NCBI GenBank assembly: GCA_025357895.1
Contig: JANYLL010000296.1
Location: 1 to 34,926, forward strand
Direction of reading: 5' to 3'
Origin: Ignavibacteriota bacterium
GTDB lineage: Bacteria > Bacteroidota > Ignavibacteria > Palsa-1295
DNA length: 34,926 bases
Shown: piece by piece, positions 22,599-26,255 of the stretch
How positions within the stretch are numbered: position 1 is the first letter of the stretch
How the letters are laid out: each line of letters starts with the position of its first letter
Notes under the pieces: model-generated
Seen by the model: only the letters and a program-made list of their open reading frames with translations
What the model was told of the DNA's origin: nothing
The model's database searches: none
Translations under genes and position numbers: made by a program

Positions 22599-22703
22599 CA
22601 CTATGAAAATGATCTACAAAATTCTTCTTACAGCCGCGCTCTTTGGTGTCATCTTTATTATGGAAAAGTTAGGGGCGGAGTCTATTGGAGTATTATACTG
22701 ATT

Positions 22704-22844
22704 CTACTTCGCCACGATCACCTGCACCGATTGCGAATACTCACCTGCCCGCAACTGGCAGAAATAAATCCCGCTTGGCATATCATGCGCATCCCAATTC
22801 ACTTCATGTGCGCCTTCCTGGATGACTTCCAAAACACGACTTAT
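22704..22844 (-). pseudogene. orphan T9SS C-terminal sorting domain remnant
   Basis: Minus-strand translation RVLEVIQEGAHEVNWDAHDMPSGIYFCQLRAGEYSQSVQVIVAK* with an in-frame TGA just upstream. The W(D/N)xxxxxSGIYFxxL...K pattern is typical of Por/T9SS type A sorting domains. Confidence 0.75.
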
Positions 22845-22962: not shown

Positions 22963-24795
22963 ATGAAAGAATTAAAACATACCGAAGCTATTCTAAAAGA
23001 GGGCTATATAGAGGATTATATTAGTGGAATTCCTGTTAAGGCCACACCTGAGGAAATAGATGCAGTACAAGTCTTTTCTCGACGATTAGTAGAGGATTAT
23101 GGGTATCCGAAAGAAATGATTCAAACACGACCACAATATCGTGTTAGAAAGCGGCCATCCGATGAAGAAAAGTCTTATCCAACTGACATTGCCGTTTTCA
23201 CTGGCAAGAAGAAAATTGAAGAAGAGATATTTTTGATTGTAGAATGCAAACAGAAAAATAAAAAGGATGGATTAGCCCAACTTCAACTCTATCTTGACAT
23301 GTCCGCTGCGATAGTAGGGGTCTGGTTTAATGGAGATAATCATGCATACATCCATAAAGTTTTTCATAAAGATGGATCACGAACTTATAAGCCACTACCA
23401 AATATACCTCGCTACAAACAGAGAATAGAGGATATTGGCCTTTATAAAAGAAAGGATCTTATCAAGCCCTCTAACCTAAAAGCCGTATTCCGGGACTTCC
23501 GAAATCATCTTGCAGGAATGACTACTGGAATCACCAGAGACGAGGCCTTAGCACAAGAAATTATTAATATTCTTTTCTGTAAAATACTTGATGAACAAGA
23601 GACAGAACCTGACCAAATGGTAAAATTTCGGGCAGGTACTGGTGAATCTCCTGAAGATGTTAAAAAAAGGATACTTTCTCTTTTTGAGCAAGTTAAAAAT
23701 GCAACCTATGAAGACGTTTTTGCTGCAAATGATTCTATAAAGCTTGATCCTGAGAGTCTACAGTATGTTGTAGGCGAACTACAGAACTATTGCGTTATGG
23801 AATCCGATAGGGATGCTATTGGAGATGCGTTTGAGATTTTTATAGGTCCAGCATTACGTGGGACGGAAGGTCAATTCTTTACACCGCGAAATGTCGTAAA
23901 AATGATGGTTGAAATTATTGACCCAAGACCTGGTGAAAAAATTATTGACCCCGCTTGTGGCTCGGGTGGTTTTTTAATAAACGCATTAGAGCATGTTTGG
24001 AAACAATTAAAAGAAGATGGAAAAAAGAAAGGGTGGTCTGAAAGACAACTCATTAAAAGAGAGGTTGAGGTAGCTACAGATTGCTTTAGAGGAATAGATA
24101 AAGATGCATTTCTTGCAAGAGTAACTAAAGCATATATGGCACTAATTGGCGATGGTAGAGGGGGTGTGTTCTGTGCAAATTCTCTTTCAATACCAGACGA
24201 TTGGCCATCTGCAGCAAAGGAAAAAATTCAATTGGGTAGCTTTGACGTAGTGTTAACAAATCCACCTTTTGGGAAGAAAATAGTAGTGAAAGGTGCACCA
24301 GTACTTTCTCAATATAATTTTGGTTATAAATGGAAAAAAAATAAAGAAACCAAACGACAAGAGAAAACAAGTACATTACATGAAGATCAACCACCTCAGA
24401 TTCTATTTCTCGAGCGTTGTCTTCAACTATTAAAAGTGGGTGGTAGGATGGGCATTGTACTTCCAGAAGCCATTTTTGGAATGCCAACTTACGAATACGT
24501 TGTGACATATCTAAGAGATCATACAAGAATCAAAGGTATAATTGCTATGCCAGAAGCGTTGTTCAAAACTAGTGGGAAAGGTGGAACACATGCAAAAGTC
24601 TGCGTTCTTATTTTGGAAAAGACAGAATCACATGATTCTGAAGAATGGGATATATTTATGGCAGATGTTAAATGGTGCGGACATGATTCTAGGGGTAATC
24701 CGACAATTAGGAAGGATGAGTTTGGAAAAGATGCTCTTCTTGATGAAGTACCTCTGATTGCGCCAAGATACAAAGAATTGATGGGAGTAATATAA
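22963..24795 (+). CDS. fused restriction nuclease (HSDR_N-like, PD-(D/E)xK) plus N6-adenine DNA methyltransferase, restriction-modification subunit
   Basis: N-term PTDIAVFTGKKKIEEEIFLIVECKQKNKKDG (D...ExK); MTase motif I IIDPACGSGGFLINAL; motif IV DVVLTNPPFGKK; GTEGQFFTPRNVVKMMVEII. Confidence 0.9.
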   Translation: MKELKHTEAILKEGYIEDYISGIPVKATPEEIDAVQVFSRRLVEDYGYPKEMIQTRPQYRVRKRPSDEEKSYPTDIAVFTGKKKIEEEIFLIVECKQKNKKDGLAQLQLYLDMSAAIVGVWFNGDNHAYIHKVFHKDGSRTYKPLPNIPRYKQRIEDIGLYKRKDLIKPSNLKAVFRDFRNHLAGMTTGITRDEALAQEIINILFCKILDEQETEPDQMVKFRAGTGESPEDVKKRILSLFEQVKNATYEDVFAANDSIKLDPESLQYVVGELQNYCVMESDRDAIGDAFEIFIGPALRGTEGQFFTPRNVVKMMVEIIDPRPGEKIIDPACGSGGFLINALEHVWKQLKEDGKKKGWSERQLIKREVEVATDCFRGIDKDAFLARVTKAYMALIGDGRGGVFCANSLSIPDDWPSAAKEKIQLGSFDVVLTNPPFGKKIVVKGAPVLSQYNFGYKWKKNKETKRQEKTSTLHEDQPPQILFLERCLQLLKVGGRMGIVLPEAIFGMPTYEYVVTYLRDHTRIKGIIAMPEALFKTSGKGGTHAKVCVLILEKTESHDSEEWDIFMADVKWCGHDSRGNPTIRKDEFGKDALLDEVPLIAPRYKELMGVI

Positions 24796-26255
24796 TGAAA
24801 ACAAATGAAAGCAGACTGGGATACTTATTAAATATTCGTGAGCTTAAAGACAATATATTCCTACCCAAATACTATAGTCCATCAATCGAAAAAAGACTAT
24901 TGGCATTGGGTAAGACCCATGATATAGTATTGTTTGAAGATCTCGTTAAAAAAAAGATTGTAGAAGTCGATACTGGGGATGAAATCGGTAAGATGGCATA
25001 TGGCACAGGTAATATTCCTTTTATTCGAACTTCTGACATTTCAAATTGGGAAGTCAAAACAGACGCAAAACAAGGGGTTAGTTTATCAATTTATGAAGAG
25101 TATTCAAAAGATCAAGATGTACGTGCTGGTGATATTTTTTTAGTAAAGGATGGGACCTATCTTGTTGGACAGTCTTGTATTATTACAGAAGATTACTTAC
25201 CTTGTTTGTATCAATCACACATCTTAAAAATTCGCGTGATTGAAAATGATTATATCTCAAATTGGCTTTTCTTTGCCATTTTGAACTCACCAATTGTACG
25301 TGAACAAATACGATCATTCCAGTTCACCGCAGATATTATTGATACGATAGGAAATCGCTACTTGAGACTTTGCCTCCCTGTTCCTAAAGTGAGTAACGTC
25401 AGAAAGAAAGTTTCTGAACGAATCGAGTCTCTGAGCAAAAGGCGAACAATTCTTAGAAACTCAATGATTGCTGTTCCGAAAAAGATAGAGTCTCTTGCTA
25501 AAGCAAAGATAACAGATATTGATCCTGCTAAGGAATTCGCTTCTATCACAGATGTAGGATTCACAAGAAAGAACACAGAGATCAAGTGGGAATCACTAAT
25601 CCCAAAGTACTATGACCCGCAATTAGATCGAGATCTCTTGTCCTTTTCAAAGAATTATCAGCTTAAGACAATAGGACAATTGGTTGCTGAAGATGTTATC
25701 GAATGGGCAACAGGAATTGAAGTTGGAAAAATGGCATACGGTACTGGGGACATCCCTTTCGTTCGAACATCTGATATTACAAATTCCGAATTGAAAGCTG
25801 ATCCTAAGCAAGGAGTTAGTGAAGAAATTTATAATGCGAATAAACAAGATGTAAAATCAGAGGATATATTTATTGTACGCGATGGTACTTATCTTGTAGG
25901 AACATCCTGTATTTTGACTGAATTTGAAACAAAAATATTATTCTGTGGTGGACTTTACAAAATTCGTGTCAGGGAAGTAGACAAACTTGATCCTTATCTA
26001 TTACTTGCATTACTTAACACCATTATTGTAAAAAGACAAATGCGCTCTAAGCAATTCACTCGGGATATTATTGATACTCTAGGAAAACGTATATTTGAGA
26101 TCATATTACCTTTCCCAAAGGATAAAGGAATTTGCTCTTCAATCGCTTTAGAAATGAAGAGCATCATTCAAGAAAGAGTTAGACTTCGAGATATGGGTGT
26201 CCAAACTGCTTTATATGTAGAAAACAATGCCGATGGTATGAGTTTTGAACAGTAA
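24795..26255 (+). CDS. type I-like specificity (S) subunit with two similar target recognition domains
   Basis: Overlaps the stop of the MTase gene (TAATG). Two repeats: TGDEIGKMAYGTGNIPFIRTSDISN...GDIFLVKDGTYLVGQSCIITE and TGIEVGKMAYGTGDIPFVRTSDITN...EDIFIVRDGTYLVGTSCILTE. Confidence 0.88.
   Translation: MKTNESRLGYLLNIRELKDNIFLPKYYSPSIEKRLLALGKTHDIVLFEDLVKKKIVEVDTGDEIGKMAYGTGNIPFIRTSDISNWEVKTDAKQGVSLSIYEEYSKDQDVRAGDIFLVKDGTYLVGQSCIITEDYLPCLYQSHILKIRVIENDYISNWLFFAILNSPIVREQIRSFQFTADIIDTIGNRYLRLCLPVPKVSNVRKKVSERIESLSKRRTILRNSMIAVPKKIESLAKAKITDIDPAKEFASITDVGFTRKNTEIKWESLIPKYYDPQLDRDLLSFSKNYQLKTIGQLVAEDVIEWATGIEVGKMAYGTGDIPFVRTSDITNSELKADPKQGVSEEIYNANKQDVKSEDIFIVRDGTYLVGTSCILTEFETKILFCGGLYKIRVREVDKLDPYLLLALLNTIIVKRQMRSKQFTRDIIDTLGKRIFEIILPFPKDKGICSSIALEMKSIIQERVRLRDMGVQTALYVENNADGMSFEQ

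Follow-up and report, generated by a model that had tools for sequence, protein, structure and literature searches.

A probable compact Type IIG/IIB-like restriction-modification enzyme with duplicated TRDs in an Ignavibacteriota draft genome

Gene content and setting of the locus

The window, by which we mean the whole 34,926-nucleotide stretch analyzed here, carries two adjoining, intact open reading frames on the forward strand. The first (22963..24795, +; 610 aa) encodes an RM subunit in which a PD-(D/E)XK nuclease is followed by a helical connector and a gamma-class N6-adenine methyltransferase. The second (24795..26255, +; 486 aa) encodes an S subunit with two homologous TRDs. The two genes overlap by 1 nt within the sequence TAATG, S starting on the stop codon of RM, as an earlier note on this DNA had described. 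The scanned neighbors encode an S41 peptidase, UvrC, TsaD, an M3 peptidase, a DinB-like protein, an OmdA-like protein, and a small methyltransferase. These are ordinary, housekeeping-type genes, and no helicase gene is found among the scanned neighbors in the window, in agreement with the note's observation that a helicase or translocase ORF is absent next to the pair.

The GC content of RM (37.8%) and S (35.3%) lies below that of the window (40.8%). Just upstream of RM, at 22703-22838 on the reverse strand, sequence left over from what looks like a T9SS-type C-terminal sorting tail reads NWDAHDMPSGIYFCQLRAGEYSQSVQVIVAK and then a stop, consistent with a gene disrupted at the insertion site. 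Together, the low GC of the two genes and the upstream remnant fit acquisition by transfer.

The host draft genome is 92.6% complete in 434 contigs. The only HsdR found in it lies on contig C125 (G000, locus L045), within a separate type I system where it adjoins its own M~S gene. The HSDR_N and helicase ORFs stand there in adjacent frames, such that this HsdR is split or frameshifted, and a 229-aa ORF accompanies them and the M~S fusion. The M~S protein of C125 aligns with the window RM over a short motif stretch only.

Domains and fold of the RM and S subunits

Pfam places HSDR_N_2 at residues 36-149 of RM (43.9 bits, cut-off 25) and N6_Mtase at residues 282-571 (125.6 bits). The nuclease domain, which we delimit at residues 29-149 (23047..23409, +), carries the motif E30, D75-x18-E94-C-K96, Q106xxxY110, with PTD at position 73, ECK at 94, and QLQLY at 106. 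The methyltransferase domain (23806..24675, +) carries DPACGSGGF and NPPF, with PACGSG at position 330 and NPPF at 433. The earlier note had read an N-terminal D...VECK motif in an HsdR-N-like context, followed by adenine-methyltransferase motifs, and both readings are borne out by these matches. Of the Pfam domains that the note proposed looking for, the HSDR_N-type and N6_Mtase domains are present on RM; Methylase_S, in contrast, gives no match on S even at E<=1.

An AlphaFold (AF2) model of the whole RM protein reached a pLDDT of 87.4 and a pTM of 0.81, and its best fold match in the PDB is RM.BsaXI (8e-26). We also modeled the N-terminal domain in isolation (pLDDT 88.3). Its best PDB matches, BsaXI, the restriction-endonuclease-like fold protein 3ijm, and DrdV, are all nucleases, with a modest fold match (6e-4, TM about 0.37); the nuclease fold on which the earlier note's reading depended is thus recovered. 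RM.BsaXI is likewise the best PDB match by profile, the alignment with the RM family profile spanning residues 29-578 at 2.6e-87.

The profile alignment places D75, E94, and K96 of RM on D90, E105, and K107 of BsaXI. In BsaXI, mutating any of four nuclease residues (E73, D90, E105, K107) kills the enzyme (PMC11997821). The fourth of these, E73, is replaced in the window RM: an invariant, non-acidic P-Q, formed by P57 and Q58 of RM, occupies the position in 14/14 sequences of the window's clade. Elsewhere E is usual at this position (74% of intact sequences), and L017 and L018, which are nested in the window's clade on the tree, have it. E30 lies in the first helix; 71 of 71 intact sequences have E there, and most decayed ones have lost it. 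Over the 91 pairs formed by the 14 sequences of the window's clade, pairwise identity averages 65% in the nuclease and 56% in the methyltransferase, a ratio of 1.16, against 0.72 in relatives with a dead nuclease. Greater conservation of the nuclease than of the methyltransferase is expected if selection maintains nuclease activity.

The S subunit matches NCBIfam MAD5 (1.4e-20), an EcoKI-type S model (2e-9), and PADLOC Specificity_I (5e-22), and its halves are 43% identical over 228 aa; the note's description of a two-TRD, type I-like specificity subunit holds. Neither S nor the TRD alignment found a match when searched against PDB sequences. From the half-to-half alignment and the TRD tree, we assign TRD1 to residues 1-250 (24795..25544, +) and, from the tree, TRD2 to residues 251-486 (25545..26252, +). 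Among the S subunits examined, only those of L089 (42%) and L091 (47%) show a comparable duplication; both are on viral contigs and beside RM proteins of the window's clade. On the TRD tree the TRD2s of these three proteins form one group (99/96) and the TRD1s another (84/83), both inside a nine-row group (100/99) together with the TRDs that L023, L088, and L035 each carry as one fused copy. By this grouping, a single TRD duplication probably predates the S subunits of the window, L089, and L091.

With M.BstXI (2M + [CCA]~[CCA]) as precedent, in which an S subunit with two similar TRDs reads a symmetric split site (PMC3874165), the duplicated TRDs lead us to expect that the window S would recognize a symmetric or near-symmetric split site. 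The TRD2s differ from the TRD1s at one loop (FCGG vs QSHI), which may leave room for a small asymmetry in the predicted site.

Relatives of the pair and decay of the nuclease

Relatives were gathered from genome, plasmid, and viral scans, the genome-contig scan with a single protein giving only two. We aligned 123 homologues and placed 100 on a methyltransferase-domain tree. The same layout recurs in full-length relatives of 71-54% identity from other phyla and from viral contigs, which argues that the arrangement is more than chance. RM and S stand side by side in L089 and L091 as in the window, and RM is fused to one TRD in L023 and L088. L023, from a Verrucomicrobiales MAG, is the closest relative at 71% identity; there RM and TRD form one gene of 852 aa, immediately preceded by a small HTH gene. 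Plasmid relatives from Skermanella, Tessaracoccus, and Paenarthrobacter consist of RM and a second gene, without HsdR.

The N-terminal domain is absent from 14 of the 100 relatives, all fused to a single TRD. At six M-only loci (L037, L038, L039, L078, L083, and L087), a separate PD-(D/E)XK-like gene lies upstream. These upstream genes form one family of 214-384 aa in which GDFYxR and ESKG are invariant across the five aligned, and they probably represent an REase family. No Pfam match was obtained for those tested (L037, L038, L039), and no PADLOC match for L037 and L087. In L067 and L077 the gene upstream of M-only has HNH-like motifs, read by eye, and that of L077 has a weak PADLOC REase_II match. 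The M~TRD proteins of L036 and L081 have no adjoining nuclease gene. Taken together, these gene arrangements show a nuclease for most enzymes of the family, whether fused or encoded apart; in MADS, other effectors have perhaps taken its place.

In Spiroplasma citri, two plasmid copies (L015, L179; about 50% identity) are fragmented into at least two ORFs. A relative with 43% identity in a Helicobacter heilmannii prophage (L180:3977-6400) is annotated as a hypothetical protein, and its length of 807 aa suggests an RM-TRD fusion. Downstream of RM+S at L044:2563-6735, we read by eye a CRISPR-type effector-like set together with a PAPS-reductase-like gene.

The catalytic triad is kept in 73 of the 100 relatives, as D-E-K or, in two, as D-D-K; the count includes L094, whose contig does not reach the first triad residue. 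All of these stand alone, with strong MADS-type neighbors in 0/73; L068 has a weak AAA match nearby (2e-7), below the threshold used. The triad classes are defined by the very residues counted, so that 73/73 describes the class, and the neighborhoods are the test. For many genome loci the flanks extend only about 1-1.5 kb, which makes the absence of MADS neighbors weaker there. The triad is decayed in 13 relatives, and 11 of the 13 adjoin homologues of MADS kinase/ATPase, HerA-like, or AAA genes. The other two are L123, which is cut off at a contig end, and L062, where MADS genes are simply absent.

A Fisher test of triad loss against MADS genes gives 3e-12; the tree allows one or two independent events, which leaves a phylogenetic pair test without power, and we claim no significance for the association. 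On the tree, one or two changes account for the lost-nuclease group, which sits among intact enzymes within a larger group (99). Midpoint rooting served the drawing only, and we infer the direction of the nuclease change. MADS-type loci with a decayed triad in the MAD2-like protein include L021, L022, L043, L057, L063, L111, L116, L124, and L126, the decay having come about by several different substitutions. In L116:5806-10013, one viral contig carries two MAD2-like methyltransferase genes in tandem.

Class assignment and meaning

We read the locus as a compact Type IIG/IIB-like (BcgI/BsaXI-type) restriction-modification enzyme, with a probability of roughly three in four. An N-terminal PD-(D/E)XK nuclease and a gamma-class methyltransferase share one polypeptide, a separate S subunit carries two TRDs, and no translocase stands beside the genes. 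The likeness to BcgI that the earlier note proposed is strengthened, the closest solved enzyme by sequence and fold being the Type IIB enzyme RM.BsaXI; within Type IIB, closeness in sequence and fold was measured against BsaXI, and likeness to BcgI is one of layout.

RM.BsaXI with S.BsaXI and BcgI, which belong to Type IIB, a subset of Type IIG, share with the window the RM fusion, the separate two-TRD S, the N-terminal PD-(D/E)XK domain, the gamma-class methyltransferase, and the absence of a translocase. The window RM is smaller (610 aa vs 916 aa in BsaXI), most likely lacks the BsaXI paddle insertion, and has another residue in place of E73. Its TRDs are near-duplicates, whereas the half-sites of BcgI and BsaXI differ. 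Like the window, M.BstXI pairs M with a separate S whose two TRDs resemble each other; from their homology, the two window TRDs may likewise read one and the same half-site. The M of M.BstXI, however, has no nuclease domain and its REase is separate, unlike the fused nuclease of the window. Single-TRD fusions have counterparts among the relatives, L023 being HaeIV-like and the M-only proteins resembling the layout of the homodimeric M.DrdI, in contrast to the window's separate S carrying both TRDs. Type I HsdM and HsdS share the M and S folds and bipartite recognition; the window differs in having no HsdR translocase and in fusing the nuclease to M.

We infer the stoichiometry, site symmetry, cleavage, and cleavage geometry of the enzyme as follows. 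Two RM subunits would assemble with one S (2RM:1S), and S, through its two homologous TRDs in inverted orientation, would recognize a short split target with full or near symmetry. Host copies of this target would carry m6A on both strands, added by the methyltransferase domains. Where the target is unmethylated, the N-terminal nuclease domains would cleave to its left and right at short, constant distances, probably once two complexes have come together. Cleavage would need Mg2+ and perhaps AdoMet, without ATP-driven translocation.

Alternatively, the N-terminal domain might keep the nuclease fold but no longer cut, or be structural, so that the pair only methylates. The replacement of an acidic residue essential in BsaXI throughout the window's clade, the decayed nuclease domains of MAD2-like proteins, and M~TRD relatives such as L036 and L081 with no adjoining nuclease gene all speak for this. 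However, the window RM keeps D75, E94, K96, Q106, Y110, and E30, its nuclease domain is, within the clade, better conserved than the methyltransferase on average, and the drift expected after decay is seen in decayed relatives and not here. We therefore regard a methylation-only pair as unlikely. Still less probable is a Type I M.S core served by an HsdR translocase acting in trans, a partner that the earlier note had named as a challenge to its reading. Contig C125 does carry HSDR_N and helicase genes, and the genome is an incomplete, fragmented draft; yet that HsdR belongs to another system, adjoining an M~S gene that matches the window RM only over a short motif stretch. We found no HsdR with an SF2 motor partnering the window M and S. 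Moreover, a nuclease domain is already built into the window RM, and no HsdR adjoins its close relatives in other genomes and on plasmids.

The best NCBIfam models, MAD2 for RM and MAD5 for S, might point to a remnant or minimal MADS defense system (MAD2 + MAD5), and the homologous methyltransferase-S core and shared N-terminal domain are genuine likenesses. The scores nevertheless fall far below the curated cut-offs (386.6 vs 720 and 73.5 vs 400 bits), no kinase, HerA, or AAA partner lies near the pair, and the window is far from the MADS branch on the methyltransferase tree. The nuclease triad, kept in the window RM, is gone from MADS-type relatives, which stand with kinase, HerA, or AAA genes. 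These observations largely refute a MADS identity, which we consider very improbable.

The window locus is probably an ordinary, active compact restriction-modification enzyme. The TRD duplication and the relationship to MADS are additions to the earlier note. One homologous methyltransferase family spans RM+S with duplicated TRDs, RM~TRD, M~TRD with its REase encoded separately, and MADS-type proteins whose nuclease has decayed. These forms illustrate, in nature, steps by which Type II systems have been proposed to arise from Type I-like scaffolds (PMC6158711). The family also yields a testable claim on the origin of the MADS methylase. We put at about even odds that the MAD2/MAD5 core descends from an active stand-alone Type IIG RM+S whose nuclease died once kinase/HerA/ATPase effectors took over restriction, in which case the self-sufficient ancestral state would have a living relative in the window. 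How MADS restricts is listed among the unknowns in PMC12904381, and the relationship to MADS is the part of this locus worth following.
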